A stretch of 64,000 nucleotides of DNA. It comes from Methylolobus aquaticus (GTDB lineage Bacteria > Pseudomonadota > Gammaproteobacteria > Methylococcales > Methylococcaceae). How positions within the stretch are numbered: position 1 is the stretch's first letter; each line of letters opens with the position of its first letter. This document shows, in pieces, positions 10,460-27,983 of the stretch. The stretch covers positions 124,001-188,000 of the forward strand of contig SEYW01000001.1 in the NCBI GenBank assembly GCA_004168015.1, read 5' to 3'. The notes under the pieces were generated by a model, which saw nothing but the letters and a program-made list of their open reading frames with translations, had not been told where the DNA came from and made no database searches. Made by a program: the position numbers and the translations under genes.

Positions 10460-11374
10460 TCAGCGTGCGACCTGGGCCGGACGCATATAGGAAATCGGCA
10501 GCGCCTCGTCGTCACGGAACGTGATCATTTCCCAGGCATCCTTCCGGCGCAACAGTTCCATCAGGAGCTTGTTGTTCAGCGCATGCCCGGACTTGTAACC
10601 CACGAAGGCGCCGATCAGACTGTGGCCGAGCAGGTAAAGATCCCCGATGGCGTCGAGAATCTTATGCTTCACGAACTCGTCCGCATAGCGCAGGCCGTCT
10701 TCGTTCAGGATCCGATAGTTGTCCACGACAATGGCATTGTCCATGCTGCCGCCCAGGGCCAGTCGACGCTTGCGCAACGCCTCGATGTCGCGCATGAAGC
10801 CAAAAGTGCGTGCCCTTGCGACTTCTTTGACGAAGGACGTCGAGGAAAAATCGATGCTCGCCGTCTGGCTGTCGGTGTGAAAGGCAGGATGATCGAAGTC
10901 GATGGTGAAGGTCACCTTGAAACCGTCGTAGGGCTCGAACCGGGCATACTTCTCGCCATCCTGAACCATCAGGCGACGCTTGATGCGGATGAAGCGCTTC
11001 GGCGCTTCCTGCTCCTGAACGCCCGCTGACTGAATCAGAAACACGAACGGGCCCGCGCTCCCGTCCATGATCGGGACCTCCGACGCACTGACGTCCACGT
11101 AGGCGTTGTCGATGCCGAGCCCCGCAAACGCCGACAGCAGATGTTCGACGGTCGAGATGCGGACATCGCCTTGCATCAGCGTCGTCGACAAGGTCGTCTC
11201 ACCCACATTTTCGGGCCTAGCCTCGATGACCACGGGCTCGGGCAAATCGACCCGACTGAATCGGATACCGGTATTCGGTGCCGCGGGACGGAGGGTCAGA
11301 TAGACCTTTTCGCCCGTATGCAGGCCGACGCCAGTCGCCCGAATCATGTTCTTCAGCGTTCGTTGTCTGATCAT
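10460..11374 (-). CDS. lpxC: UDP-3-O-acyl-N-acetylglucosamine deacetylase LpxC
   Basis: This zinc enzyme catalyses the committed step of lipid A synthesis in the cytoplasm. It has 304 residues. The zinc and catalytic motifs are [20 protein letters not shown] near residue 78, [14 protein letters not shown] near 237, and [17 protein letters not shown] 11374 is preceded by a GAGGAGAG ribosome site; the longer open frame upstream is not conserved. It is the last gene of the dcw cluster, 148 bases after ftsZ, the usual gammaproteobacterial position. Confidence 0.97.
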
Positions 11375-11522
11375 CTGACTCTCCTCATTGTGACGGGAAC
11401 GTCTGCCCCCACCGATGTCGAACGGCGTGCCGCGCCGCGGCAGAACGGCACGTCGAATACGCCGGTGTCTCTCTTGCAATCCTTGGGTCGGGCACGGATT
11501 GCCGCGTAGCAAGCGGCGGGCA

Positions 11523-12668
11523 TCAGTCCGCTTGGCGCCGCAGGAACGCGGGGATATCCAGGTAATCCATGTCCATCTCCTTCGCCGTCTCCGCACGCGG
11601 CTCATGCTTCGGTTGGCGCCGGTGGACAGCCGGTCGCTGCAACTGCTCGTAGTCGATCTCCCCGGTGTTTTTCTGCACCAGTTTCAGAGCGGTCTCTCCC
11701 GAGGCGTGTGAACCGGTCAGGCCTGTGGCGACCACCGTCACGCGCACTTCATCGACCAGGTCGGGGTCAATCACGGTACCGATCACGACGACGGCGTCGT
11801 CGGATGCGAACTCCTTGACCTTGTTGCCGACTTCGTCGAACTCGCCGATGGCCAGATCCAGACCACCGGTAATATTGACGAGAATGCCGCGCGCCCCCTG
11901 CAGGCTCGTATCTTCGAGCAGCGGGCTCGCGATCGCGCGCTCTGCCGCCTCGCGTGCCCGGTTCTCACCATTGGCGACACCCGTCCCCATCATCGCCATG
12001 CCCATCTCGGCCATGACGGTCCGAACGTCGGCAAAGTCGACATTGATGAGACCGGGGCGGGTGATCAGGTCGGCGATACCCTTGACGGCCCCGAGCAACA
12101 CGTCGTTCGCGGCTGCGAACGCCTGCATCAGGCTGACATCCTTGCCCAGGACCGGTAGCAGTTTGTCATTCGGAATCGTGATCAGTGAGTCGACGAACTG
12201 GCTCAGTTCCTCAACGCCCTTGTCCGCGATCTGCCGCCGTTTGCGTCCCTCGAACATAAACGGCTTGGTGACAACCGCGACCGTCAGGATACCGGCTTCC
12301 TTGGCGATCTCCGCGATCACTGGCGCAGCCCCCGTACCGGTACCACCACCCATTCCGGCGGTGATGAAAACCATGTCCGCGCCGTCGAGTACTTCCTGGA
12401 TCCGTTCGCGGTCATCGAGTGCCGCCTGGCGGCCGATGTCCGGATTGGCGCCGGCGCCCAGCCCCTTGGTGAGAGCGCTACCCAACTGGATTACGGAGCG
12501 CGCATTGATGCTCTTGAGCGCTTGGGCGTCCGTGTTCGCGCACAGGAACTCCACGCCCTCGATGTGGTTGGTGACCATGTGGTTGACGGCATTGCCACCG
12601 CCGCCACCGATACCAACCACCTTGATCACGGCATTCTGACTGTATGAATCCACGAGCTCGAATTTCAT
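11523..12668 (-). CDS. ftsZ: Cell division protein FtsZ
   Basis: This tubulin-like GTPase forms the Z ring. It has 381 residues. The GTP-binding glycine-rich loop [13 protein letters not shown] is near residue 19, the tubulin signature [13 protein letters not shown] is near 107, and the T7 region [11 protein letters not shown] is intact. The C-terminal peptide [14 protein letters not shown] is the site that binds FtsA and ZipA, both encoded in this window. ATG 12668 is preferred over an in-frame TTG two codons earlier. It is 30 bases after ftsA. Confidence 0.98.
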
Positions 12669-12698
12669 GCTCAATCCCTCACGTTCGGTTTGATATGC

Positions 12699-13934
12699 CT
12701 AAAAACTCCCACTGAACCAGTTCCGCATCCTGGTCCATACGCCCTTGAACCCCGGCCCCGCCACGAATTGCCGGTCTCCCCCGCTCTGATGCTGGCGAGC
12801 GAACAGCAACAATCCGGCACCGGTTGCATAGATTGGGTTGCGCACGACATCGGTCAGACCCGTGACATGCTGCGGCACCCCGACCCGCACCGGCACATGG
12901 AATATTTCTTCCGCGAGTTCGGTCAGACCTTCGACGCGCGCACTGCCGCCCGTAATCACCAAGCCCGCCGCGATCAGGTCTTCAAACCCGCTGCGCCGCA
13001 ACTCCCCCTGCACCAACAGCAGAAGTTCCTCGTAGCGTGGTTCCACGATTTCGGCCAGATTCAGGCGCGAGATCTTGCGCGCCGGACGGTCCCCAATACT
13101 CGGCACCTCGATCGTATCTTCGAGTTTGGCCAGCTGAGTCAGCGCGCAACCGTGGCGAAGCTTGATGTCCTCGGCAAACTGCGTGGGCGTGCGCAGGGCC
13201 ACGGCGATGTCGTTGGTGACCTGGTCCCCGGCGATCGGTATGACGGCCGTGTGTCGGATGGCGCCATCCGTGAACACGGCGATGTCGGTGGTGCCGCCGC
13301 CGATGTCGACGAGACACACACCGAGATCCTTCTCGTCCTCGCTGAGCACCGCGGTACACGAGGCCAACTGATCGAGAATGATGTCCTCGACCTCCAGGCC
13401 GCAACGCCGTATGCATTTCACGATGTTCTGGGCGGCGCTGACCGCGCCGGTGACGATGTGCACGCGGGCTTCCAGGCGGATGCCGGACATGCCGATCGGC
13501 TCGCGGATGCCCTCCTGGCGGTCGATGACGAATTCCTGCGGCAGGATGTGCAGAATTTTCTGGTCGGCCGGAATGGCCACCGCGCGCGCCGAATCGATCA
13601 CACGGTCCACGTCGGCTTGCGTGACTTCCTTGTCGCGGATGGCCACGATGCCATGCGAATTCATGCTCGTGATATGGCTTCCGGCGATGCCGGCATAGAC
13701 CGAATTGATTCGGCAACCTGCCATCAACTCGGCCTCCTCGACCGCCCGCTGAATCGAGAGCACGGTCGTTTCCAGATTCACGACGACACCTTTCTTGATG
13801 CCCCGCGACGGATGCGTGCCGATGCCAACCACCTCGATATCGTGATCGCCGTTCAGTTCGCCGACGATACAGGCGACCTTGGACGTTCCGATATCCAGGC
13901 CGACGATCAAGTTTCTGTCTGCTTTTCTTACCAT
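12699..13934 (-). CDS. ftsA: Cell division protein FtsA
   Basis: An actin-like ATPase of 411 residues that tethers FtsZ to the membrane. The phosphate loops NLIVGLDIGTSKVACIVGE (near residue 8) and CLVDIGGGTTDIAVF (near 203) and the adenosine motif AAGLVITGGSARVEGL are present. The C-terminal FKGVWTRMRNWFSGSF is the amphipathic membrane-targeting helix. Its ATG overlaps the end of ftsQ by 7 bases, which implies translational coupling. Confidence 0.98.
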   Translation of the reverse strand: MVRKADRNLIVGLDIGTSKVACIVGELNGDHDIEVVGIGTHPSRGIKKGVVVNLETTVLSIQRAVEEAELMAGCRINSVYAGIAGSHITSMNSHGIVAIRDKEVTQADVDRVIDSARAVAIPADQKILHILPQEFVIDRQEGIREPIGMSGIRLEARVHIVTGAVSAAQNIVKCIRRCGLEVEDIILDQLASCTAVLSEDEKDLGVCLVDIGGGTTDIAVFTDGAIRHTAVIPIAGDQVTNDIAVALRTPTQFAEDIKLRHGCALTQLAKLEDTIEVPSIGDRPARKISRLNLAEIVEPRYEELLLLVQGELRRSGFEDLIAAGLVITGGSARVEGLTELAEEIFHVPVRVGVPQHVTGLTDVVRNPIYATGAGLLLFARQHQSGGDRQFVAGPGFKGVWTRMRNWFSGSF

Positions 13935-14794
13935 TGAAGCGCCGCGAGATGTGAGTTTGGACGTTGCATGAACGGCTGGAGAGAGGCACCCGTACCCCCA
14001 GCCGCGCCGTTTTCATCAGGCGCCGGGTCCGGTTCGGTTGCCAGACCCCAGACCACGGCAAAACCGTTGCGGTAGCGCAGGTCGACTCGCTTTACCAGGG
14101 CGCCGCGCCGGCGCTGTAGGCTCGGCAACCACCGCCGCAGGCGCTCAAAGCTGGCTACCGGGTCCTGGCGCCCGATGACGATTTCCTGGCCGTCGGAAAG
14201 CGTCGCGGTCCAGCTCTGTCGGGCGGTCAATTGCAGCCTGCCGACGCGGACGTTGTCGCCCTGGATCATCGCATTCAGCTTGCTAAACACCGCGAAGACT
14301 TCGCGTTCCTGCCCTTCGGGCCCGGATAGGACGGGCAATGCATCGAATCCTCCGCGGCTCGCCGGCGTAAAGCGGACACCACGGTCGTTCAGGAGGCTCC
14401 CCTGATTCCAGCGCGCGGCAGGACGATGCTCGCTGACGTTAACGATCAGCGTATCCGGCCATTGCCGCACCACGCGGAGGTCTTCCACCCAGGGGAACGA
14501 GCGGCCAACCGACTCGATTGCCGACAGGTCGACGTCAAAAAAACCAACCTGCGCCAGGGGTGAGATGGCCGAACTGAGCTCGCTCTCGTCGAGTTGGAGA
14601 ATCTTGCCTTCGATTCGAACGTAGCGGATCGGATAGGCATGGCGCAAGCTCTGATCCCAATAGGCCCACGCGCCGCAACCGATGACGCCCAGCAGCCCGA
14701 GACTGACCAACGGCGGCAGCCAGTGTGCCATGCGCGACGAACGCAGGCTCTGTTGCGGCGCTCTGCCCCGCGTCACTGCGGTTCTGGGTCTCAT
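13928..14794 (-). CDS. ftsQ: Cell division protein FtsQ
   Basis: A bitopic divisome protein of 288 residues that links early and late division proteins. A basic cytoplasmic N-terminus is followed by one membrane helix (about residues 27-46) and the POTRA region IRYVRIEGKILQLDESELSS with PWVEDLRVVRQWPDTLIVNV. The C-terminal half follows the FtsQ pattern. It begins one base after the ddl stop and runs into ftsA. Confidence 0.95.
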   Translation of the reverse strand: MRPRTAVTRGRAPQQSLRSSRMAHWLPPLVSLGLLGVIGCGAWAYWDQSLRHAYPIRYVRIEGKILQLDESELSSAISPLAQVGFFDVDLSAIESVGRSFPWVEDLRVVRQWPDTLIVNVSEHRPAARWNQGSLLNDRGVRFTPASRGGFDALPVLSGPEGQEREVFAVFSKLNAMIQGDNVRVGRLQLTARQSWTATLSDGQEIVIGRQDPVASFERLRRWLPSLQRRRGALVKRVDLRYRNGFAVVWGLATEPDPAPDENGAAGGTGASLQPFMQRPNSHLAALQW

Positions 14795-14795
14795 A

Positions 14796-15722
14796 TCAAC
14801 AGCTGGTTTCCAGAATCCGCCAGACGAGTTCGTCGAACGGGATTCCTGCCGCCTTTGCGGCCATGGGCACCAAGCTGTGGTCAGTCATGCCAGGGACCGT
14901 GTTGACCTCGATCAGCCAGGGCTGACCATTGCCGTCGACCAGCAGGTCTACGCGCCCCCAACCCTCGACGCCGACGGCCCGACATGCCTTCAAAGCCAAC
15001 TGCTGAAAACGACGCTCAGTCGCCTCGTCGAGCCCGCTGGGGCAGTGGTAGCGCGTCGTATCAGCCCGGTATTTCGCGTCGAAGTCATAGAACGCGTTGG
15101 GCGTCTCCAAACGAATCAGCGGCAGGGGCTCGTCATCCAGGATCGCGGCCGTATATTCCCTGCCCTCGACCCACTGCTCGGCGAAGACGCGGCAATTAAA
15201 GGCCGATGCGGCCTGCCAGGCGGCCTGCAGCTCGTCGAGCGTCTCCGCACGACTCATGCCGATGCTGGAACCCTCGGCGGACGGCTTGACGATCACCGGG
15301 AAGCCAATGGTCTCGGCACAGCGCTGCAAATCGGACTCGCCGTCCAGCGCGCACCATGCCGGGGTCGGGATGAACGCTCCCATCCAGCACAACTTGGTCC
15401 GGAGCTTATCCATGGCCAGGGCCGATGCGAGCACCCCGCTGCCGGTGTACGGCAGGCATAAGGACTCCAATGTACCTTGCAGCACACCGTCTTCCCCGCC
15501 CCGTCCGTGAATGATATTGAAGACACGGTCAAAGCCTTGATCAAGCACGCTGGCAACGAGATTCCCCCGAACATCGACTCCGGTCGCCCGGATCCCTCGC
15601 TGTTGCAGGGCGGCCAACACCGCTTGTCCGCTCCTCAAGGATACCTCGCGCTCGGCGGCCGTACCGCCCATCAGCACGGCGACGTGCCCGAACTCCTCAG
15701 CCTGCCGCACCCGATACTTCAC
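14796..15722 (-). CDS. ddl: D-alanine--D-alanine ligase Ddl (DdlB type)
   Basis: This ATP-grasp enzyme joins two D-alanines for the peptidoglycan stem. It has 308 residues. Typical blocks are VAVLMGGTAAEREVSLRSG at the N-terminus, IIHGRGGEDGVLQG, FPVIVKPSAEGSSIGMS, and the metal site WLIEVNTVPGMTDHSLVP at the C-terminus. It overlaps the murB stop by 4 bases. Its natural partner MurF is not encoded at its usual site in this cluster. Confidence 0.97.
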   Translation of the reverse strand: MKYRVRQAEEFGHVAVLMGGTAAEREVSLRSGQAVLAALQQRGIRATGVDVRGNLVASVLDQGFDRVFNIIHGRGGEDGVLQGTLESLCLPYTGSGVLASALAMDKLRTKLCWMGAFIPTPAWCALDGESDLQRCAETIGFPVIVKPSAEGSSIGMSRAETLDELQAAWQAASAFNCRVFAEQWVEGREYTAAILDDEPLPLIRLETPNAFYDFDAKYRADTTRYHCPSGLDEATERRFQQLALKACRAVGVEGWGRVDLLVDGNGQPWLIEVNTVPGMTDHSLVPMAAKAAGIPFDELVWRILETSC

Positions 15723-16666
15723 TTGCTACGCCCTCCCGTCGCCGCCAGCCTCTCCCCGACGATCCGCACTTCCGGATGCAGGGTCACGCCGCATAACTGG
15801 TTAACTTCAGATTGAACGTGCAAGATCAACCGCTCGATATCCTCTGCCGTGGCATTCCCCAGATTCACGAGAAAATTTGCGTGCTTGGTCGAGACCTGAG
15901 CACCGCCGACCTGGAAACCCTTAAGTCCGCAGGCTTCGATTAGTCGGCCGGCGTGATCGCCGGGAGGATTGCGAAAGGTGGAGCCGCAGCTAGGCAGATT
16001 CGTGGGCTGTGTACCGGCACGCCGCGCGAGCAATTCCCGAATCTTGCTGCGCGATGCCGAGGCATTGCCCGGCTGCAGGCGTAACTCGGCGCCGATGAAC
16101 CATTCATCCACAGGAAGCCCGACCACCGAGCGATAGCCCACCGTGAACTCGGCCGCCGCGCGCCACCGGCAGACGCCTGTGCGATCCATGGTCTGCACGC
16201 GTTCGACCAGTTCCCACGTCTCGCCACCGAAAGCACCGGCGTTCATGGCCAATGCGCCGCCCACGGTGCCGGGGATGCCGGCGAGGAACTCACCGCCGCC
16301 CCACGCGGCATCGGCGCAGAAGCGCGCCACGTGCGCACAGGGGACGCCGCTCTGGACGAAGACGCGCAGGCCATCGCGACGTTCAATCGACTTCAAGCGA
16401 TTTTTCGTACAAATCACGACACCCCGGATACCCCCATCTCGAACCAGGAGGTTGCTTCCGAGACCCAGCCAAAAGACAGACTCCGTCGGCGCGAGTGTCT
16501 GCAGGTAAAGGCTGAGATCGGACGCATCGGCGGGCAGATACAGCCGATCGGCTGGTCCGCCAACGCGCCACGAGGTGAAGTCGGCCAACGGCGCATTGAA
16601 AGCCTCGGTACCGGCTGGGCCAGCCCGGCCGGCCGGGTGCTCCATGCGGAAACTAGCGGTCGCCAT
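15719..16666 (-). CDS. murB: UDP-N-acetylenolpyruvoylglucosamine reductase MurB
   Basis: This FAD enzyme reduces the enolpyruvyl group to make UDP-MurNAc. It has 315 residues. FAD and substrate motifs are [55 protein letters not shown], and [20 protein letters not shown] with the catalytic Ser/Glu region. ATG 16666 lies inside the end of murC (14-base overlap) behind a GAGAGG site. The upstream extension to 16711 is not family-like. Confidence 0.96.
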
Positions 16667-18098
16667 GCCACCTCTCCGCAAGCGCTTTCGGCAGCGCAGC
16701 CGCGGCCGCACCGATATTTCCAGCGCCCAGCGTCAGGACGACGTCACCCGGTTCGATCAGGGGGGCCAGGACTTCCGCCAACTCGTCCAACTCTTCGACG
16801 AAAATCGGGTCGATCCGCCCTCTGACACGGATGGCGCGGCTCAACGAGCGCCCGTCGGCACCCGCGATCGCCGGCTCGCCGGCGGCGTAGACGTCAAGCA
16901 GGACCAGAAGGTCAGGTTTCGAGAGCACCCGGACGAAGTCTTCGAAGAGATCGCGGGTACGGGTATAGCGATGAGGTTGGAAGACCATCAGCAGCCGGCG
17001 GTCTGGCCATGCTTCGCGCGCGGCGTCAAGGGTTGCCGCCACTTCGCGCGGATGATGGCCATAGTCGTCGACGAATGTCACGCTCCGTTCGCCCCGCGAG
17101 ACTTCGGCGTTGATCTGAAAACGGCGGCCGATACCGCGGAAATTGCGTAAGGCCCGCAGAATAAGGTCGTCCGGCACCTCCAGTTCGGACGCGACCGCAA
17201 TGGCGGCCAGCGAATTCTGAACATTGTGCCGCCCGGGCAGATTGAGCGTGACGTCGAGGCGCCCCGTCCGCCCCTCGCGCACGAGTTCGAAATGACTCGC
17301 CAACCCGAGCTGGCGGATATTCTCGGCACGCACGTCTGCCCCCTCGGAGATGCCATAGGATCTCACGGGCTTGCTGATGCGGGGCAACGCTGCCTGAACG
17401 CCGGGATCATCACGGCACAGCACCGCGAGGCCATAGAACGGCAATTGATGTATGAATTCGATGAAAGTGTCCTGGAGCTTGCCGAGGTCCCCACCGTAGG
17501 TCTCCATGTGGTCCTGATCGATGTTCGTGACAACAGCGATCATCGGCTGTAGGTGCAGGAAGGACGCATCGCTTTCGTCAGCCTCTGCGACCAAATACTG
17601 TCCTGCCCCCAACTGAGCGTTGGTGCCTGCGCTATTCAGCTTCCCGCCGATAACGAATGTCGGATCCAGCCCTGCCTCGGCCAATATACTGGCCGTAAGG
17701 CTGGTCGTCGTGGTCTTGCCATGCGTGCCAGCGACGGCGATCCCATAGCGAAACCGCATTAGCTCGGCCAGCATCTCCGCCCGCGAAATCACCGGGATAC
17801 GTTGCTCACGCGCAGCAACAACCTCGACGTTCGCCGACGCCACGGCGGTGGATGTTACCACGACCTGGGCGCCTTGGACATTCGCGACGGCGTGGCCTAT
17901 CGCAATTTCTGCCCCCAAATGGCGCAGATGCACGGTGGCAGGACCTTCCTTCAGATCGGACCCCGACACCTGGTATCCGAGGCCCAGCAGCACCTCGGCA
18001 ATCCCGCTCATGCCGGCACCGCCAATACCGACGAAATGGATACGGCGAATCCGACGCATGGGCGAACCGCTCAGCGGGGCCTCGAAACTGGTCATCAT
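16653..18098 (-). CDS. murC: UDP-N-acetylmuramate--L-alanine ligase MurC
   Basis: A 481-residue Mur ligase that adds L-Ala to UDP-MurNAc. The N-terminal nucleotide fold has [18 protein letters not shown] (about residues 19-36). The ATP loop is [13 protein letters not shown] near residue 123, and further family blocks are [25 protein letters not shown] and [15 protein letters not shown]. The start ATGATG overlaps the murG stop. Confidence 0.97.
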
Positions 18099-19162
18099 CG
18101 TGCCTCCTTCAGAGCGATATCAGCTACCCGTTGCGCCGCCTGCGGCTTGGCGAGATTGCTTGCCTGGCGGCCCATTGCCACCAAGGTCTCGGGATCGGCG
18201 GCCAGTTCACGAATAAGCGCAGCCAGGCCGGCGGCGGTTAAGTCGTTCTGAGGGACACAGCGACCGGCGCCTCCTTTCTCGAAAAACCGAGCATTGGCGG
18301 TCTGATGATCATCGATCGCGTACGGATAGGGCACCAGGATCGCCGGTAAGCCGACGACTGCCAGTTCGCTGACGGTCATGGCACCGGACCGGCAGACTGC
18401 CAGATCGGCCCAGCGATAGGCACTGGCCATATCGTCAATGAAGGCAACGACTTCCGAAGCCACCCCCAGACGACGGTACAAGGCAGCCGTCTGATCGCGC
18501 ATCGCTGTACCGGTCTGATGCCGGATCTCGCAAGGGAGGTTTAGCTGGGCCAAGGCCTCCGGGACGATCTCATTCAGGGCTTGTGCGCCGAGGCTTCCGC
18601 CAAAAACGAAGATGCGGAGCGGAGCATCAGGCAGTCGGGATGCGCGTTGCGCGGCAATCTCGAGCAGGGCCCGCCGCACCGGGTTCCCGGTGCACTCCGC
18701 TTGCCGCTCCTTCGGAAAACTGCCGGGAAAGGCTTCCAACACCCTGCGGGCGCTTTTCGCAAGCCAGCGGTTGGTGGTTCCGGGGATGCAGTTCTGTTCA
18801 TGTATCACGAGCGGGACGCCCAACAAACGGCTCATTAGCCCGCCCGGGCCCGAGACGAACCCGCCGAATCCCAGCACCACTTGCGGCCGATGGCGTCGAA
18901 GGATGCCGATGGCCTGCAGACAGGACTTGAGCAACAGAAACGGGCCGGTGACGCGTTCGCGCCAATTCTTACCGCGAAGACCTGCGACACTCAGTGTCTC
19001 CAATGTGAACCCAGCGGACGGCACGACACGCGACTCCAGGCCTCGTTGCGTCCCCATCCAGACCAGCTCGCACCCGCGGCTGCGCAATTCCTCCGCGACG
19101 GCGAGCGCCGGGTAGACATGTCCGCCGGTACCACCGGCCATGATGACTACGCGCGCGCCCAT
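18095..19162 (-). CDS. murG: UDP-GlcNAc:lipid I glycosyltransferase MurG
   Basis: A peripheral membrane GT28-family enzyme of 355 residues that converts lipid I to lipid II. The membrane-facing glycine loop [16 protein letters not shown] is at residues 8-23. [15 protein letters not shown] and the donor-site [13 protein letters not shown] follow, then [22 protein letters not shown] near residue 265. ATG 19162 is 16 bases inside the end of ftsW. A much longer open frame upstream is out of register with known MurG proteins and overlaps ftsW. Confidence 0.97.
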
Positions 19163-20349
19163 GTCGTCCGGATCCGGGGTCCGCCGAGTCGCCGCTCGAC
19201 GGCTTCTGAGCGCACGCGCAGCAATAACGCCAGCGCCGCGCAGGTCACGATCATGCTGCCACCACCGTAGCTCATAAGGGGCAGGGTCAGGCCCTTGGTC
19301 GGCAGCATACCCATGTTGACGCCCATGTTGATGAAAGCCTGCAGGCCGAACCAGATCCCGATGCCATACGCAAGATACGCACCGAAGCGCAAACCCTGCT
19401 GCTCGGCCAACCGACCAATGGCGAAGGCCCGCCACACGACGACGGCGAACAGCAGGATAACGGCGCAGGCGCCCAGGAGACCCAACTCCTCGCCGATTAC
19501 GGAAAACAGGAAATCCGTGTGGGCCTCCGGCAGATAAAAGAGCTTCTGAACACTCGATCCCAGTCCCACGCCTGTCCATTCCCCACGGCCGAAGGCGATT
19601 AGTGCCTGAGTCAACTGGAATCCGGTGTTCAGCGGATCCGCCCACGGGTCCAGAAAGCTCAACACGCGCTTCAGGCGATATTCTGCCGTGACGACGAGAG
19701 CGACCGCTGAAACCACCATCAGGCCGGCCAAAACCCCGAAAGGCCAAAGACGCGCACCCCCGATGAACAGCATGCCCAGCGCCGTTGCCATGATCACCGC
19801 GGAGGCTCCGAAATCGGGCTCCATCAACAGCAACCCGCAGGCGATCGCCAACAAACCGAGGGGGTACACCATCCCGAGCACGGACGAGCGGACGACGTCC
19901 AGATGTCGCGTCAGATAACTGGCAACATAGATGACCGCGATGAGTTTGAAGATCTCGGAAACCTGGATCCGGACGCCGAACAGGTTAAGCCAGCGGATAG
20001 CACCATTGACGCGGGTGCCCAGCCCCGGAATCAGCACGATCAGCAATAACAGAATGCCGAAACCAAATAGAACGAATGAGGATTTCTGCCAAGTATCCAG
20101 TTTAACCGTGGCGACCGTCACTGCCAGGAGAAAGCCGGCAAGGATATGGGCCAACTGATGCTTGGGAAAAAAGAAGCTGTCGTCCGCGAATTTATCGCCC
20201 AGATGGAGCGAAGCCGACGACACCATGATGAACCCAAGAATCAGCAAGCCACTCGCCGCGAGCAAGAGTAAGGTATCGACGTAAAAACGATTCTGTCCCC
20301 AGGCCAGGACCACCCCCTGGCTGCGTTGTGCTACAACCGCATGCTTCAT
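19147..20349 (-). CDS. ftsW: Peptidoglycan glycosyltransferase FtsW (SEDS family)
   Basis: A 400-residue polytopic protein with about ten hydrophobic segments. It polymerises lipid II at the septum together with FtsI, which is also encoded here. SEDS signatures are FKLIAVIYVASYL, LLMEPDFGASAVI, GFQLTQALIAFGRGEWTGVG, PEAHTDFLFSVIGEELG and the C-terminal LPLMSYGGGSMIV. It overlaps murD by 4 bases. Confidence 0.97.
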   Translation of the reverse strand: MKHAVVAQRSQGVVLAWGQNRFYVDTLLLLAASGLLILGFIMVSSASLHLGDKFADDSFFFPKHQLAHILAGFLLAVTVATVKLDTWQKSSFVLFGFGILLLLIVLIPGLGTRVNGAIRWLNLFGVRIQVSEIFKLIAVIYVASYLTRHLDVVRSSVLGMVYPLGLLAIACGLLLMEPDFGASAVIMATALGMLFIGGARLWPFGVLAGLMVVSAVALVVTAEYRLKRVLSFLDPWADPLNTGFQLTQALIAFGRGEWTGVGLGSSVQKLFYLPEAHTDFLFSVIGEELGLLGACAVILLFAVVVWRAFAIGRLAEQQGLRFGAYLAYGIGIWFGLQAFINMGVNMGMLPTKGLTLPLMSYGGGSMIVTCAALALLLRVRSEAVERRLGGPRIRTTWARA

Positions 20350-21710
20350 GTCGGCAAACTCCGAACGGCTTCCACGAATACCTGACCCCGGTGCTGATAA
20401 TCGCGATACTGATCAAGGCTGGCACAGGCCGGGGCGAGCAAGACGGTATCTCCATCCTGAGCCAGAGCCGCAGCGGCGCCTACTGCCTCATGCATCGTGT
20501 TCACTCGGGAGACCGGCACCACGTCACCCAGGGCGGATTGCAGCAGCGCCGCATCCTTGCCCATCAACACCGCGGCCCGAAGGTGTCGGGCCGCAGCGTC
20601 CCGCAGTATGCTGAAATCCGCGCCCTTGCCATCACCGCCCGCAATCAGCACGGCCTTTCCGGTCAGGCCCGAAAGCGCCGCCAGGCAGGCCCCGACGTTG
20701 GTCGCCTTCGAGTCGTTCACGTAAGTCACCCCATGCCGCTCGGCAACCCACTGCATCCGGTGTTCCAATCCCGGGAAAACTCTCAGCGCATCGGCCATCG
20801 CCTGTTCCGAAAGGCCGGCAGCCGTCCCCAGGGCTAGCGCCGCGAGCGCATTGCTCAGATTGTGCTGCCCGCGAATCCGAACCTCGCCCGCCGGCATCAG
20901 GAACTGCTCACCCCGGGTCAGCCACACCTCTCCCTCGCGCTCCTGGAGACGGAAATCAGCAGCGCCGTTCAAGCCGAACCAGACGACCCGACGCCCCGGC
21001 TGCGCCATTCCGGCTACGATGGGATCATCCTGGGTCAGCACCATGACACCGTTTCCATTGAAGATCCGCGCTTTGGCCGCCGCGTAGCCCTCCAGATCCG
21101 CGTAGCGATCCATATGGTCGGGAGTGACGTTCAGCACGGTTGCGGCGAGCGGCTCCAGCAGCGACGAGCGTTCCAGCTGAAAGCTCGACAACTCCAACAC
21201 ATAGAGTTCGGCTTCGTCGTCCAGCAGATCGAGCATGGGCTCGCCCAGGTTCCCGCCGACCCGGACTCGGCGTTGGTCGCGCTCTGCCATCAGCCCGAGT
21301 AGCGCCGTCACGGTGCTCTTGCCGTTTGAGCCGGTAATGCCGACCACCGGCGCGTTCGCGCAGCAGGCAAACAAATCCACATCACCCAGCACTCGCGCCC
21401 CCCTGGCAGCCGCCGCCGCGATGGGAGGAATATCCAACGCCACGCCGGGGTTCACGATCAGATGCGTCGCGGCGGCGAAGGCCGCTGGGGCGAAATCACC
21501 AAGGAAAACCCCGACATCGGGGAATGCTTCCCGCAACGCATTCAGGCCCGGGGGGTCGGAACGGCTGTCGACCACAGCGAAGCGGATACCTTTCCCGGCC
21601 AGGAAACGGGCGACCGACAAACCGGTCTTGCCGAGACCGACGATCAGCGCCCGCGAATCGGGGCTTAGCCCGGCGGCAGCCAGACGGGAATCGGTCAGGT
21701 TACGGGTCAA
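20346..21710 (-). CDS. murD: UDP-N-acetylmuramoylalanine--D-glutamate ligase MurD
   Basis: A 454-residue Mur ligase that adds D-Glu. ALIVGLGKTGLSVARFL forms the N-terminal UDP-binding motif, VGITGSNGKSTVTALLG is the ATP loop near residue 122, and YVLELSSFQLE and YVNDSKATNVGA are typical of MurD. The start is TTG 21710, with AAGGGAG about 7 bases upstream; no ATG fits. Confidence 0.97.
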   Translation of the reverse strand: MTRNLTDSRLAAAGLSPDSRALIVGLGKTGLSVARFLAGKGIRFAVVDSRSDPPGLNALREAFPDVGVFLGDFAPAAFAAATHLIVNPGVALDIPPIAAAAARGARVLGDVDLFACCANAPVVGITGSNGKSTVTALLGLMAERDQRRVRVGGNLGEPMLDLLDDEAELYVLELSSFQLERSSLLEPLAATVLNVTPDHMDRYADLEGYAAAKARIFNGNGVMVLTQDDPIVAGMAQPGRRVVWFGLNGAADFRLQEREGEVWLTRGEQFLMPAGEVRIRGQHNLSNALAALALGTAAGLSEQAMADALRVFPGLEHRMQWVAERHGVTYVNDSKATNVGACLAALSGLTGKAVLIAGGDGKGADFSILRDAAARHLRAAVLMGKDAALLQSALGDVVPVSRVNTMHEAVGAAAALAQDGDTVLLAPACASLDQYRDYQHRGQVFVEAVRSLPT

Positions 21711-21726
21711 GGCGAACTCCCTTTGC

Positions 21727-22809
21727 TCAGCGCAGCTTCAAGGTCGCCAGACCGGCGAGCACCAGAATGACGGTGACGATCCAGAAACGAACGATCACGC
21801 GCGGCTCCGGCCAGCCCTTGAGCTCGAAATGATGATGCAGCGGCGCCATGCGGAAGATGCGCTTTCCGGTCATCTTGAACGATGCGACCTGCAATACGAC
21901 CGAGACCGTTTCCATCACGAAGACGCCGCCCATGATCATCAGCACGACTTCCTGGCGTACGAGGACAGCCAGGGCACCGAGCGCCGCGCCGAGAGCCAGC
22001 GCGCCCACGTCGCCCATGAAAACCTGAGCAGGATAGGCATTGAACCACAGAAACCCGAGACCCGCGCCGACCAGTGAGCCGCAGAATACAACCAGATCGC
22101 CCGCCTTCGGTACGAAAGGGATACCCAGATATTCGGCAAAGCTCGCGTGCCCCGACGCGTAGGCGAAGATGCCGAGGGCCCCTCCGACCATCACGGTTGG
22201 CATAATCGCAAGACCATCGAGGCCATCGGTCAAATTCACGGCATTGCTAGTGCCTACGATGACGAAATAGGTCAGCAAGACGTACCCGGGACCGAGATCG
22301 ATCACGACGTTCTTGAAGAACGGCACGATATATTGTGTTTCGGCTGGCGTCGACGCCGAATAATAAAGGAACAAGGCGGCTGCCAGCCCGAACACCGACT
22401 GCCAGAAATACTTCTCACGAGCCAGCAACCCTTTGCTGTTTCGCAGTACCAGCTTACGGTAGTCATCGACGAAACCGACGATGCCAAAGGCAAGCGTGAC
22501 CGAGAGCACGGTCCAGATGTAACGATTGGTCAGGTCTCCCCAGAGCAGCGTGCTGGCGGCGATCGAAACCAGGATCAATGCCCCGCCCATGGTCGGCGTG
22601 CCGGCCTTCGAGAAATGGCTCTGCGGCCCGTCCTCACGAATGCTTTGCCCGATCTTGTAACGGCTCAGCCGCCGAATCATCGCCGGCCCGACCAGAAACG
22701 AGATCAACAAAGCCGTGAGTACCCCGAGGATCCCGCGGAAGGTCAGGTAGTTGAAAACACGGAAAATGTCAAAATAGTTTTCGAGCCAGCGGGTGAGGGT
22801 CAGAAGCAT
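21727..22809 (-). CDS. mraY: Phospho-MurNAc-pentapeptide translocase MraY
   Basis: This polytopic enzyme makes lipid I from UDP-MurNAc-pentapeptide and undecaprenyl phosphate. It has 360 residues, the E. coli length. Family motifs are [31 protein letters not shown] (catalytic Asp pair), [29 protein letters not shown] and [18 protein letters not shown] 22809 has a GGAGCTCACC leader. Its substrate is the MurF product, yet murF is missing from the expected place immediately upstream. Confidence 0.97.
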
Positions 22810-23020
22810 GGTGAGCTCCAGCGGCAAATACCCGCGGCAAAACGACTCGATGACCCAGGTCCCCGAGGCGGGCGAGAACCCGGATGTCGCGGTAAGTCAG
22901 GTTGTATTTCGTCTTTGTAAAGCATGAAACCTCGATTGGTACCGACGATCGCGCCCTCATGTCGTGCACCCGTATTCAAGTCGCTTCGCCGTCGCCGCGC
23001 CGGCTTGCACCACACACTAT
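22810..23020. other. murE-mraY gap where murF would normally lie
   Basis: These 211 bases separate the murE stop from the mraY start. In nearly all gammaproteobacterial dcw clusters a murF gene of about 1.35 kb is here. I read all frames and saw no MurF motif (no GxNGKT loop, no ligase blocks), only short random frames, so there is no recognisable remnant. I see no clear promoter or terminator either. Confidence 0.8.
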
Positions 23021-24517
23021 TCACTGCAGTAACTCGCGCGCTACCACGCGGTCATCGAAGGGTGTTTTGGTCCCGCCGACGTCCTGCACGACCTCATGGC
23101 CTTTTCCGGCGATCAAAACCACGTCGCCCGCAGCGGCCGCCTCCATTGCGATCTGCATGGCCTGGCGCCGATCACGCTGAACCCGGACGTCGTTTCCAAC
23201 GCACCCTGCCAGGATGTCGGCGACAATGGCGTCACCGTCCTCGTGGCGGGGATTATCGTCGGTAATCACGACATGGTCTGCGAGTTCTCCGGCGATGCGC
23301 CCCATTAACGGTCGCTTTCCCCGATCGCGTTCACCACCACACCCGAAGACGACCCAGAGATCGCGGGCGCAGCCGCGACGGAGGCTCAGCAGAACACGTT
23401 CGAGCGCATCCGGCGTGTGGGCATAGTCGACAACGATGTTGGCACCGGCGGCGCTGCGAAAATGTTCCATGCGACCGGGAACCGGTCGCACGTTCCCGAG
23501 ACGCTCCACGGAGTCGGTAAGCCCGAAGCCCAAGCCGAGCATTACCGCAAGAACACCAAGAATGTTCTCGGCGTTATAGTGTCCGAACAGAGGCACGACG
23601 AACTCGGCATCGCAACCGGCATATTCGACCGAGAGGCGCAGGCCGTCGTCGCGCTGTTCGATTCGCCGCGCCACCACGCCGGTGGGCTCAGCCGTCTTGC
23701 TCCCCACCACACTGAAGGGAATCCCGACCACCCCTGAGGGCAGGCGCTCGCCAACGTGCCGGGTTACCGGGTCATCCGCGTTGAAGGCGACGGTCTCCAG
23801 ACCGGCAAAATCCAGCAATCGCATTTTCGCGGCAATATAGGCCTCGTGCGTGCCGTGGTAATCGAGATGGTCCCGCGTGATGTTGGTAAACAGGGCAGCC
23901 TTCGCCAAGACCCCGTTGAGCCGACCCTGCACCAACCCGTGCGACGAGGCCTCCAGTGCCACGGCCCGCACCTCTCGTGACCTGAGTTCCGCGAGAATCG
24001 CGTGGATACCGATAGCGTCCGGGGTTGTCTGGTCGGTGGGCATCAGACGACCAGGAACTCCCCAACCCAGCGTGCCGATCACGGCCGCAGGATCACCATT
24101 GGTCAGCGCATTGGCCAGAAAATGGGTGCATGAGGTCTTTCCATTCGTGCCAGTCACGGCAATGACGTCCAGGTGCGATGAGGGATGTCCAAAAAAACGG
24201 TCGGCTATGAAGCCGACCTTTTGGAGGAGTCCTTCGGCGGGAACGCAGTCCACATCTCGCAGCGCCCCGGCGTAAGCCTCACCGCCCCCCGCCGGATCAT
24301 ACAGGATGGCGCGAGCCCCTCGCCGAACCGCTTCGGCGCTGAACTGCATCCCATGTTGCTGATGGCCCGCCACTGCGACGAAAAGGTCCCCCGGACGAAC
24401 CGCGCGACTATCGAGGCACAGCCCACTTACTTCCGCCGCACCGCCAACACCCGCCGAAACGAGACCACCGAGCAATTCGCTCAACGGAATAGACTGCCCG
24501 CCCTTTCCAAGAGCCAT
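23021..24517 (-). CDS. murE: UDP-MurNAc-tripeptide synthetase MurE (meso-DAP type)
   Basis: A 498-residue Mur ligase that adds the third stem residue. The ATP loop is VIAVTGTNGKTSCTHFLA near residue 118, followed by GTLGWG, TTPDAIGIHAILAEL, ALEASSHGL and VVDYAHTPDALERVL. The DNPRHE motif selects meso-diaminopimelate rather than lysine. The size is normal and the C-terminus ends in MurE sequence, so this is not a MurE-MurF fusion. It starts 4 bases after ftsI. Confidence 0.97.
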   Translation of the reverse strand: MALGKGGQSIPLSELLGGLVSAGVGGAAEVSGLCLDSRAVRPGDLFVAVAGHQQHGMQFSAEAVRRGARAILYDPAGGGEAYAGALRDVDCVPAEGLLQKVGFIADRFFGHPSSHLDVIAVTGTNGKTSCTHFLANALTNGDPAAVIGTLGWGVPGRLMPTDQTTPDAIGIHAILAELRSREVRAVALEASSHGLVQGRLNGVLAKAALFTNITRDHLDYHGTHEAYIAAKMRLLDFAGLETVAFNADDPVTRHVGERLPSGVVGIPFSVVGSKTAEPTGVVARRIEQRDDGLRLSVEYAGCDAEFVVPLFGHYNAENILGVLAVMLGLGFGLTDSVERLGNVRPVPGRMEHFRSAAGANIVVDYAHTPDALERVLLSLRRGCARDLWVVFGCGGERDRGKRPLMGRIAGELADHVVITDDNPRHEDGDAIVADILAGCVGNDVRVQRDRRQAMQIAMEAAAAGDVVLIAGKGHEVVQDVGGTKTPFDDRVVARELLQ

Positions 24518-24521
24518 CGAC

Positions 24522-26246
24522 TCAGTCCCCCTGGGCCGTCAGCAAGGGAAAGCTTGTCGGCTCGTCAGGGACGACGTTCAACAGCCGCAAGGCTCCTTCC
24601 ATGACGCTCGAAAAAACCGGCGCCGCCACGGTGCCGCCGTAATACTCACCGGCCGAGGGCTCGTCGACCATGACCACCATGACCAGACGGGGGTCACTGG
24701 CCGGTGCCAGCCCGGCAAAAACCGCCGAATGTGCAGCCGACGCATAGCCCCGTCGCCCCATCGCCTTCTTGACGGTGCCGGTCTTGCCTGCGACGCGGAA
24801 CCCAGGAACGGCGGCGCGCAGCGCAGTCCCCTCCCGCGTGACGACCTGCTCCAACATGGTGCGAACCGAAACCGCCGTCTTCGCCGACATCACCTGGTAG
24901 CTTTTCGACGCCTCGCGCTGAGCGACGAGGTTCACGGAGGGAACGCGCCCCTCGTTGGCGAAGGCGAGGTACGCACGCCCCAAATGGAGCACCGAGGTGG
25001 AAAGCCCGTAACCGAAGGACAGCGTGGCCTGTTCGAAATGGTTCCAACCTCGGTGATGCGGCAACCGCCCCTGTGCCTCTCCGGGGAATCCCGTGTGGAG
25101 AGGCTGGCCGAAACCGAGATTATTGTAGAAGGCGTAAAACTTCGCGGAAGGAATAGAAAGTGCGATGCGACTCACGCCAACGTTGCTGGACTTTTGCAGA
25201 ATGCGGGTCACGTTCATGACCCCATAATTGTGCATGTCCTTGACAACATTGGTGCCGACACGCAGGGAACCCGGATTGGTGTTAATCACCGACTCGGGCC
25301 TAAACAGGCCGAGCTCGAGTCCACAAGCGACGGCGAATGGCTTCATGGTGGAGCCTGGCTCGAACAGATCCGTGATCGCACGATTACGGAAGAGATTTCC
25401 TTTCAAACCCTGCCGGCTGTTCGGATTGAAAGAGGGCTGATTGACCATCGCGAGAATGTCGCCATTGCGCGCGTCCAGTAGCACCAGGCTCCCCGACTTC
25501 GCGCGGTTTTTCTGCACGGCCGCCTTTAGTTCCCGGTAAGCAAGGTACTGGAGCCGCTGATCGATCGTCAGCCGGACATCCTTGCCTGCTACCGGTTCAG
25601 TGACCTCGTCGAGATCCTCGATAATACGTCGACGGCCGTCGCGGATGATTTTCCGACCGCCCTCAACACCTCTCAGGGAGCGGTCATAAGCCAGCTCAAT
25701 CCCCTCTTGGCCACGGTCATCAATATCGTTGAAACCGACGACATGAGCGGCAACTTCGCCACTCGGATAATAGCGCTGATACTCCCTGTCGGCATATACG
25801 CCGGCGACCCCGAGAGCCAAAACGCGATCCGCCAGCTCCGGGCTTGTGCGCCGCCGCAGAAAGGCAAAGGTACCCTCGTCCTGCCCCGTGACATGCGCTC
25901 GCACTCCCGTCACGGGCAAGCGCAGGATGCCGGCAATCAGCCGCAACTGCTCCTCGGTCGGATTGAACTCCCGAGGATTGACCCATACCGACTTCACGGG
26001 AGAACTGATAGCGAGCAATTCGCCATTGCGGTCGAGAATGCGCCCGCGATGCGCGGGAATCGGCATGACGCCCACATGGCGTCGATCGCCCTCGTTCTGC
26101 AGAAATTGCCGGTTCAGCACCTGGAGGTAAGAAGCACGCACCATAAGCACGAGTAAACCTGCCAGTATCAGGAACAGCAGAACTTGCCACCGCACCGCGT
26201 ATTCATCACCGTCGAGGCGCTTCGAGGAAGTAGGGTAAATCATCAT
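24522..26246 (-). CDS. ftsI: Septal peptidoglycan transpeptidase FtsI (PBP3)
   Basis: A class B penicillin-binding protein of 574 residues with one N-terminal membrane anchor (about residues 19-40). The pedestal region has RGRILDRNGELLAISSP. Active-site motifs are complete: GSTMKPF (nucleophile Ser), SSNVG and AGKTGTVKK. It cross-links septal wall in complex with FtsW, FtsQ and FtsL, all in this cluster. ATG 26246 or ATG 26243 can start it; it lies 14 bases after ftsL. Confidence 0.96.
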   Translation of the reverse strand: MMIYPTSSKRLDGDEYAVRWQVLLFLILAGLLVLMVRASYLQVLNRQFLQNEGDRRHVGVMPIPAHRGRILDRNGELLAISSPVKSVWVNPREFNPTEEQLRLIAGILRLPVTGVRAHVTGQDEGTFAFLRRRTSPELADRVLALGVAGVYADREYQRYYPSGEVAAHVVGFNDIDDRGQEGIELAYDRSLRGVEGGRKIIRDGRRRIIEDLDEVTEPVAGKDVRLTIDQRLQYLAYRELKAAVQKNRAKSGSLVLLDARNGDILAMVNQPSFNPNSRQGLKGNLFRNRAITDLFEPGSTMKPFAVACGLELGLFRPESVINTNPGSLRVGTNVVKDMHNYGVMNVTRILQKSSNVGVSRIALSIPSAKFYAFYNNLGFGQPLHTGFPGEAQGRLPHHRGWNHFEQATLSFGYGLSTSVLHLGRAYLAFANEGRVPSVNLVAQREASKSYQVMSAKTAVSVRTMLEQVVTREGTALRAAVPGFRVAGKTGTVKKAMGRRGYASAAHSAVFAGLAPASDPRLVMVVMVDEPSAGEYYGGTVAAPVFSSVMEGALRLLNVVPDEPTSFPLLTAQGD

Positions 26247-26260
26247 GATCGTAACCCGCG

Positions 26261-26524
26261 CTATTGTCCGACGTGAAGGTAAATGATCGATTCCCGGGAC
26301 GGCAGGATCATGCCGAGCCGTGTATGGGCCAGCTTCTCGATACGGCTGTGCTCGGCCCAAGTATTCTGTTCAAGCTGCAACTGACCCAATTCGACATCGT
26401 AGGCCTCAAGCGACTGTTCCAGCCGCTGAACCTCGGTAAACAACATCCGCGATCGGTACTTCGCGTAGATGACCCCCAACGCTGAGGCCACCAGCACGGC
26501 AATCAAGATGGCGACCACTTTCAC
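26261..26524 (-). CDS. ftsL: Cell division protein FtsL
   Basis: A small bitopic divisome protein of 87 residues. After the GTG start comes a hydrophobic helix (KVVAILIAVLVASALGVIYA) and a coiled-coil leucine-zipper-like stretch (EVQRLEQSLEAYDVELGQLQ), then the FtsL-typical IEKLAHTRLGMILP. The GTG at 26524 overlaps the rsmH stop as GTGA. A longer frame upstream is inside rsmH and is not conserved. Confidence 0.93.
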   Translation of the reverse strand: MKVVAILIAVLVASALGVIYAKYRSRMLFTEVQRLEQSLEAYDVELGQLQLEQNTWAEHSRIEKLAHTRLGMILPSRESIIYLHVGQ

Positions 26525-27477
26525 GACGGCAGCCTCTCGGCAATGCGCAGCACCGCACTGCGCGCGCGCGGGTTGGCGGCGATTTCGCCGGCCCCGGCCC
26601 GAATCGCGCGCCCCACGCGCCGCAGCCGCGGCGCCTGCCAACCCGTCATTGCGGGCCAACCCAACGCGGCGTCATCGGCGTGCCCGCCTCGGCTCTCGTC
26701 ACGCAGAAAACGTTTGACGATACGGTCCTCCAATGAGTGGAACGCGATGACGACCAAACGCCCGCCGGTCACGAGCACGTCCACCGCCTGTTCGAGTACC
26801 GCCTGAATGTCGTTCAGTTCCTGGTTGATATGGATACGAATCGCCTGGAAAGTACGCGTTGCGGGATGTTGACCTTTCTCCCGTCGCGGCATCGCGGCCG
26901 CGACCAGGGAAGCAAGCTGCGCCGTGCTCACCAGCGCACCTCGCGCGCGGCGTTCCACAATGGCGCGCGCAATCCGGCGAGCATAGCGTTCCTCTCCATA
27001 TTCCTTTATCACCCGGCAAAGTTCCGCTTCACTGACCACGGCCAACCACTCTTCAGCCGTCATCCCCTGGCTCTGGTCCATACGCATGTCGAGGGGCCCA
27101 TCCCGCATGAAGCTGAAGCCCCGGCCGCCGTCGTCCAGCTGGGGCGACGAGACGCCCAAATCCAACAAGATGCCCGTTACACGCCCTGCCCAACCGGCCG
27201 AAGATGCAAGCGCGCCGACTTCGCTGAACCGCGCATGCGCGATGCGGAACCGACGATCCTGAAGCAATCCCAACGCGCTGGCCGAACCCACAGCTTCGGC
27301 ATCGCGGTCCAGCGCCAGCAGCCGACCGGACTCGCCAAGGCGGTCAAGCACGGCCGCGCTGTGCCCGCCGCGCCCGAAGGTGCCGTCGATGTAAAGGCCG
27401 TCGGACTGGATCGCCAGACCTTCGATACACTCTTCCAGCAAGACCGGGGCGTGGCGGAACTGATGTCCGGCTGCCAT
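26521..27477 (-). CDS. rsmH: 16S rRNA (cytosine(1402)-N4)-methyltransferase RsmH (MraW)
   Basis: A SAM-dependent rRNA methyltransferase of 318 residues acting on C1402 in the ribosomal P site. Motifs are HAPVLLEECIEGL, YIDGTFGRGGHSAAVL (SAM loop), GILLDLGVSSPQLDD, RGFSFMRDGPLDMRMD and VIAFHSLEDRIVKRF. ATG 27477 shares one base with the mraZ stop (TGATG). Confidence 0.97.
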   Translation of the reverse strand: MAAGHQFRHAPVLLEECIEGLAIQSDGLYIDGTFGRGGHSAAVLDRLGESGRLLALDRDAEAVGSASALGLLQDRRFRIAHARFSEVGALASSAGWAGRVTGILLDLGVSSPQLDDGGRGFSFMRDGPLDMRMDQSQGMTAEEWLAVVSEAELCRVIKEYGEERYARRIARAIVERRARGALVSTAQLASLVAAAMPRREKGQHPATRTFQAIRIHINQELNDIQAVLEQAVDVLVTGGRLVVIAFHSLEDRIVKRFLRDESRGGHADDAALGWPAMTGWQAPRLRRVGRAIRAGAGEIAANPRARSAVLRIAERLPS

Positions 27478-27935
27478 CAAAAGGTGAGGGATCCAAGCTC
27501 GGGAGACAGCTCCCGCAAGTCATCGAGGCTGACCACCCCATGCCATTGTTCGCGGTTCTGATGCCAAGACTCTTCGTCCCAGATCTCGAACACGTTGCCC
27601 TGCCCAACCAGCGCAACCCGCTTGGATATACCGGCAAAACTTCGGAGCAGTTCAGGCACCAGGAACCGACCTTGTCCATCGAGTTCGCATTCCGCCGCGT
27701 GCCCGATCAGCAGCCGTTTCACGCGCTGCACGCGGGCATCCATCATCGGCAGCTTCATCAGCTTGCGTTCGACGTCTTCAAAGGTCGGCAAAGGCAGCAA
27801 CAGCAGGCATCGGTCGAAGCCAATCGTCAGGATCATCTGCCCGTCACATGACTCCGCCAATTCGGCACGGTAGCGGGTCGGAATTGCCATCCGCCCCTTC
27901 TCGTCCAAATTGATGGCGTTGATGCCCCGAAACAA
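27477..27935 (-). CDS. mraZ: Transcriptional regulator MraZ
   Basis: This DNA-binding protein represses the dcw promoter by binding repeated TGGGN boxes. It has 152 residues, the same as E. coli MraZ. Two AbrB-like swaps are seen: FRGINAINLDEKGRMAIPTR at the N-terminus and ECELDGQGRFLVPELLRSF near residue 80. I chose TTG 27935 because it gives the conserved start and has AAGG 8 bases upstream within a G8 tract. An ATG at 27974 would start inside the operator. Confidence 0.93.
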   Translation of the reverse strand: MFRGINAINLDEKGRMAIPTRYRAELAESCDGQMILTIGFDRCLLLLPLPTFEDVERKLMKLPMMDARVQRVKRLLIGHAAECELDGQGRFLVPELLRSFAGISKRVALVGQGNVFEIWDEESWHQNREQWHGVVSLDDLRELSPELGSLTF

Positions 27936-27948
27936 AGCCCCCCCCTTA

Positions 27949-27983
27949 CACCACTGTTCCCCATTTCTCCCCACTTTTCCCCA
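27949..27983 (-). promoter_or_regulatory. Four tandem MraZ boxes (operator)
   Basis: On the minus strand TGGGG occurs at 27983-27979, 27973-27969 and 27963-27959, then TGGTG at 27953-27949. All are spaced by exactly 5 bases, a 10-base period that puts them on one face of the helix. This is the known MraZ target layout, here lying from about the predicted transcription start into the 5' leader, 14 bases before the mraZ start. Confidence 0.9.

Follow-up and report, generated by a model that had tools for sequence, protein, structure and literature searches.

Most likely recurrent replacement of the essential murF of pMMO methanotrophs by betaproteobacterial-type genes inserted outside the dcw cluster

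The window, the whole stretch of 64,000 nucleotides of Methylolobus aquaticus that was analysed, carries on its minus strand a dcw cluster in the canonical order mraZ, rsmH, ftsL, ftsI, murE, mraY, murD, ftsW, murG, murC, murB, ddl, ftsQ, ftsA, ftsZ, lpxC. MurF is absent from this order. Our family searches thus agree with the sequence-only reading of the same DNA, which had described a cluster complete from mraZ to lpxC, ddl included, except for murF. The best models for ftsI and ftsQ score under their curated cut-offs, so that these two names rest on gene order too. The features of the window are as follows.

10460-27974, minus strand: dcw cluster, mraZ to lpxC (profile searches and gene order)
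27477..27974, minus strand: mraZ (TIGR00242)
26521..27480, minus strand: rsmH, also mraW (TIGR00006)
26261..26659, minus strand: ftsL (TIGR02209)
24522..26360, minus strand: ftsI (best models penicillin-binding proteins/FtsI)
23021..24517, minus strand: murE (TIGR01085, 468.8 bits against a cut-off of 257.3)
22810..23020, minus strand: murE-mraY junction, the usual murF site, non-coding, 211 bases, no MurF frame
22831..22854, minus strand: probable scar of the 3' end of a deleted native murF, reading VIESFCRG (position-limited comparison with the dcw MurF of genome G004)
21727..22809, minus strand: mraY (TIGR00445, 447.3 bits against a cut-off of 192.05)
20346..21710, minus strand: murD (TIGR01087)
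19147..20349, minus strand: ftsW (TIGR02614)
18095..19747, minus strand: murG (TIGR01133; frame taken from the first start codon, MurG match at residues 199-544)
16653..18098, minus strand: murC (TIGR01082)
15719..16711, minus strand: murB (NF010480 / TIGR00179)
14796..15722, minus strand: ddl (NF002378)
13928..14794, minus strand: ftsQ (NF008043, 114 bits)
12699..13934, minus strand: ftsA (TIGR01174)
11523..12674, minus strand: ftsZ (TIGR00065)
10460..11605, minus strand: lpxC (TIGR00325; frame taken from the first start codon, LpxC match at residues 79-375)

Between the end of murE at 23021 and the ATG of mraY at 22809, the 211 bases are non-coding and hold no MurF, as the sequence-only reading had stated. 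A scan of 22700-23150 found no coding-strand promoter and no terminator; its one promoter-like match lies on the plus strand. We compared the junction in relatives, as that reading had proposed. The sister genome of the same genus g1 (G002) also has 211 bases at this place, and the junctions read in two further genera of the family, g9 and g10, are likewise without murF. The DNA identity between our genome and G002 is 93% for murE, 97% for mraY and 98% for murF, and 84% for the junction. Within the junction, it is 70% over the murE-side bases 1-74 and 92% over the 137 mraY-side bases 75-211.

Searches of the gap for a murF remnant at the DNA and protein levels, unrestricted in position, did no better than shuffles. 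In the last 75 bases ahead of mraY, ending 21 bases from its ATG, the minus strand reads VIESFCRG, seven of whose eight residues agree with VIEAFCRG, a stretch close to the C-terminal end of the MurF from the native-type dcw cluster of G004; there the counterpart lies about 14 bases ahead of mraY (extrapolated). In a position-limited, post hoc test designed after a short first match, the score was reached by none of 100 shuffles and none of 100 internal-segment controls, and by none of 200 shuffles in another run. Since the test was framed after the first match and the unrestricted search was negative, we regard VIESFCRG as what is probably left of the 3' end of the native murF. At the same position G002 reads VTESFRRG, which is not significant (11/100 shuffles reach the score). 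No clear remnant was seen in the g9 and g10 junctions, where the score was reached by 2/100 shuffles in G010 (borderline), 16/100 in G018, 19/100 in G023, 46/100 in G024 and 72/100 in G011.

The genome to which the window belongs (G000, genus g1; 42 contigs, 89.5% complete) was searched with the MurF model TIGR01143. Five matches were obtained, of which a single one exceeds the MurF cut-off and lies outside the dcw cluster.

G000:C15:99529-100905, plus strand: full-length murF (TIGR01143, 432.8 bits against a cut-off of 288.6, model positions 1-418 of 418)

The predicted protein has 459 residues and a GSNGKTT loop, corresponding to the GxNGKT ATP loop and invariant in 6/6 aligned rows. The sequence-only reading had advised a whole-genome search for just such a protein, of about 450 residues with this loop. 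It had also considered that another kind of Mur ligase might stand in for MurF; this idea fails, since the replacement is itself a MurF. The other four matches were considered as enzymes that could do the job of MurF and were rejected, all being under the cut-off. The nearest PDB chain is 8f5d, a MurE/MurF-type fusion. On the MurE/MurF fusion model NF008896, the C15 protein scores 508 bits against a cut-off of 1023 and matches the MurF half only, and is thus not a fusion. The native MurE of the window scores equally high on this model (504), so that NF008896 is not diagnostic of origin and was dropped as a marker.

The C15 murF is located downstream of a lysR-type regulator gene (opposite strand), dabB, dabA and a HAD-IIA hydrolase gene; dabB is named by its place, the gene itself being proton-antiporter-like. 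The same arrangement is found in G002, whose MurF is 99% identical and where a peptide deformylase gene then follows. At the g1 locus L035:3105-10906, lysR (opposite strand), a dabB-like gene, dabA (inorganic carbon transporter), a TIGR01459 HAD hydrolase gene and murF form one run. Behind our murF, near the end of C15 (L001:3421-4266), an open reading frame resembles, by eye, an IS5-type transposase, and the frame between murF and this transposase-like frame (L035:11054-11383) covers only the first 108 of the 284 residues of the deformylase-like protein of G002. The GC content at third codon positions is 0.83 for murF, 0.69-0.75 for the dcw genes and 0.83 for the neighbouring dabB; base composition thus does not single murF out.

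The displaced murF is not contamination. Indeed, murF and pmoA share one contig (C34) in G002, so the murF contig is not that of a stray betaproteobacterium, and in the single-contig genomes G010, G023, G314 and G315 murF is on that contig. For our own genome alone, a second murF may conceivably lie in the missing part of the assembly. This genome encodes pmoCAB, and its PmoB shares 84.5% identity with the PmoB of G023 (genus g9). The latter matches PDB 3rgb, which we take to be Methylococcus capsulatus Bath, over all 414 residues (932 bits; 11 differing residues counted, about 97% identity). Genus g9 is thus probably Methylococcus and the family probably Methylococcaceae, as judged from this protein.

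In order to describe the distribution of the two MurF types, we surveyed 38 genomes of the family with MurF matches at 1e-40. A betaproteobacterial-type match was found in 13 (G000, G002, six of g9 and five of g10) and a dcw-type match in 22, while three (G011, G001, G021) gave none. Genome G011 (g10) holds a betaproteobacterial-type murF fragment at a contig end, which brings the carriers to 14/38, all in g1, g9 and g10; G001 is 72% complete. None of the 38 genomes has both types at this threshold. No murE or mraY flanks the betaproteobacterial-type murF at any of the 13 loci; in two of them (G019, G323) a contig end interrupts murF, and two others (G316, G324) were read with shorter flanks. 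At the dcw-type loci checked (21 of the 22, G312 being left out), murE and mraY adjoin murF in 21/21. The neighbourhoods of the displaced gene differ among the three genera; in g10, it follows argS, a gene weakly like ftsN, gloA and a TsaC-like gene.

In the third genome that gave no match, G021 (genus g12), the dcw murE directly adjoins mraY and no canonical murF was seen. Its best match elsewhere (L050:8264-9865, minus strand; L051) is a 533-residue Mur-ligase-like protein that lacks the MurF N-terminal part and has, by eye, a hydrophobic N-terminal region; the gene adjoins a D-Ala-D-Ala ligase gene. Of the 121 genomes of the order that were searched, none of the 120 others matched this protein at 1e-45. 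It may conceivably be a third kind of replacement. As G021 gave no rpoB match at 1e-100 either, its murF may simply be unassembled.

In the wider class, 274 genomes were searched for MurF and MraY, and 120 were in both sets among the matches listed. The two genes lie within 3 kb of each other in 112 of these 120. The eight exceptions among the matches listed are G000, G010, G153 and G248 (both at contig ends), G191, G072, G113 and G157. In G191 and G113, mraY comes after murE with no murF in between; in G072 and G157, no murE was seen next to mraY. The MurF stretches of these last four genomes (L258-L265) do not contain the betaproteobacterial motif described below. Detachment of murF is therefore uncommon but not unique in the class, among the matches listed, and no displaced betaproteobacterial-type MurF was seen outside the family among the loci examined.

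To place the displaced MurFs, we built a careful tree of 65 sequences: 34 from Betaproteobacteria, the 13 displaced ones, 12 from dcw clusters of the family and order and 6 from the class. A split supported at 100/97 puts the 34 betaproteobacterial and 13 displaced MurFs together with two class genomes, against the 12 family and order MurFs with the other four. Forcing the displaced MurFs, a group defined by murF position, to join the family and order dcw MurFs lowers lnL by 197 and is rejected by the AU test (p 8.8e-43). As controls, quick trees of MurE and MraY were made for eight genomes of g1, g9 and g10, the reference genomes being largely those of the MurF tree: all eight group with the 12 family and order rows (support 100 and 98), and the 28 betaproteobacterial rows stand apart at 100. 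The MurF tree thus conflicts with the host, whereas MurE and MraY, the neighbours of the lost gene, follow the family.

The motif REHQEF gives the same picture. It is present in 13/13 displaced MurFs, in 0/14 family dcw MurFs and 0/14 order MurFs, and in 2/28 class MurFs, both in the betaproteobacterial part of the tree. It also occurs in 64 of the 80 best named relatives, which are nearly all Betaproteobacteria by title; both figures are biased, as the retrieval patterns included REHQEFM. Identity to our MurF is about 42-47% for the dcw MurFs of the family and about 50-54% for the displaced ones of g9 and g10. Two class genomes, G208 and G061, have MurFs 52-53% identical to ours, as close as many betaproteobacterial ones, yet they fall outside the betaproteobacterial part of the trees; the case therefore rests on trees and motif rather than on identity. 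The AU tests were made with the trees already known, so their p values are somewhat generous. Together, these data show that the displaced protein, as a predicted MurF, is of betaproteobacterial (Burkholderiales) type and nested within the Betaproteobacteria, and we infer a donor of this kind. Among the records used, L117, titled Alistipes senegalensis (Bacteroidota), carries murE, murF and mraY, and its betaproteobacterial MurF falls among the Oxalobacteraceae; it is most likely a mislabelled or contaminated MAG.

The number of events was estimated by comparing gene and host trees. In the MurF tree, the g1 sequences group with six betaproteobacterial ones (96/89); a single Burkholderiales MAG accompanies those of g9 and g10 (100/99). 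Host trees were calculated from a dcw concatenate and from RpoB (quick trees, SH-aLRT only); our own genome gave no rpoB match, and g1 was represented by G001 and G002 in the RpoB tree. In both host trees, g10 falls within a clade that also contains g15, g13, g2 and g7 and whose other members checked have a dcw murF. The RpoB tree joins g1 and g9 as sisters (support 95), a relation that the dcw concatenate does not resolve. The host trees thus part g10 from g1 and g9, which shows, at the level of sequence, at least two losses of the native murF and at least two separate imports of a foreign one within the family.

A single betaproteobacterial import, either into the common ancestor of the three genera or spread within the family and followed by divergence, is improbable. 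It would account for the broad type and motif shared by all three, for the sister position of g1 and g9 and for the grouping of g9 and g10 MurFs with one MAG. Against it, the AU test rejects one clade uniting all displaced MurFs (lnL 86 lower, p 7.5e-5) and likewise one clade of the three hosts (p 7e-4), both tested after the trees had been seen, and the murF neighbourhoods of the three genera are unlike. The MurF type common to g9 and g10, although the hosts are distant, suggests that the donors were related or that the gene passed from one genus to the other. A further proposal, on which we are doubtful, is that the native gene was lost three or four times (in g1, g9, g10 and perhaps G021) and re-supplied from Burkholderiales-like neighbours or between genera. 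This would suggest selection, either in favour of separating the final precursor step from the dcw operon or against the native MurF, the agent being for example a natural inhibitor or a phage protein.

That the native gene simply left the cluster through ordinary rearrangement is very unlikely. The sequence-only reading had envisaged that murF had moved, and was right as to position, a full-length murF being present on C15. It was wrong in substance in taking a murF elsewhere as simple relocation, for by tree and AU test this is a betaproteobacterial-type gene and not the native one. The four class genomes with a detached murF that lacks the motif show that other routes of detachment occur, but relocation is contradicted by the 197 lnL units cited above and by the motif, found in all 13 displaced MurFs and in none of the 28 family and order ones. 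Slightly less probable still is an old second murF in the family, with lineages losing one or the other copy. This hidden paralogy would likewise yield mutually exclusive copies, but no genome of the 38 showed both at 1e-40, and the displaced MurFs nest inside the Betaproteobacteria, not beside them. As for an assembly that dropped murF from the junction, the last option of the sequence-only reading, the 42 contigs and incomplete state of our genome might have favoured it, but the same junction in G002 excludes it for practical purposes, as do the murF-free junctions of g9 and g10, including those of the single-contig g9 genomes G010 and G023.

It is thus highly likely that a complete betaproteobacterial (Burkholderiales-type) murF was inserted elsewhere and that, at the same time or later, the cluster lost its native gammaproteobacterial murF by deletion. 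MurF is essential, and cells lacking it altogether should be inviable. From this we infer the order of events: import, coexistence of both copies, deletion. The complete foreign gene would have arrived first and inserted elsewhere in the chromosome, in our lineage downstream of the lysR-dabB-dabA-HAD run. During a transient two-copy period, the imported enzyme, presumably a working MurF, would have functioned with the native MurE and MraY: it would add D-Ala-D-Ala to the UDP-MurNAc-tripeptide made by MurE, and the pentapeptide would pass to MraY. The native murF, then dispensable, would have been deleted, leaving the mraY leader and perhaps a few 3' codons. If this is true, MurF tolerates exchange over a very large evolutionary distance with MurE and MraY remaining native, which offers a natural test of how closely Mur enzymes must match their partners. 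It also advises caution with murF as a marker of vertical descent in this group of methanotrophs.

The process by which foreign orthologues take the place of resident genes is already known. A literature search limited to open-licence PMC papers found no report of murF replacement in methanotrophs, and the excerpts of PMC4498754 and PMC8871954 report no such case. The term xenologous gene displacement is used in PMC2374987, whose excerpt states that essential genes with low duplicability and high connectivity are mostly inherited vertically; the murF case runs against this trend. As in such displacement, an orthologue gained by horizontal transfer takes the place of the resident gene: the resident orthologue is absent and the acquired one present (one MurF above the cut-off in a genome 89.5% complete, and no family genome with both). 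Unlike it, the replacement is here ectopic, not at the native locus, and repeated within one family.

Recurrent ectopic xenologous replacement of the essential murF in pMMO methanotrophs is most likely the best reading, and three known arrangements can be set beside it. The class genomes G191, G113, G072 and G157 resemble ours in having murF detached from mraY, but differ in their MurF stretches, which lack the betaproteobacterial motif. The native dcw murF of the family and order belongs to the same enzyme family, with presumably the same reaction, but falls in another clade, lacks REHQEF and lies between murE and mraY. Finally, the betaproteobacterial dcw MurF, for example that of Burkholderiales, is like ours in sequence family, in the NAQREHQEFM motif and in tree position, and the same ligase fold is expected; in contrast, our murF stands alone outside the dcw cluster, whereas in 80/80 named records murE and/or mraY adjoin murF.
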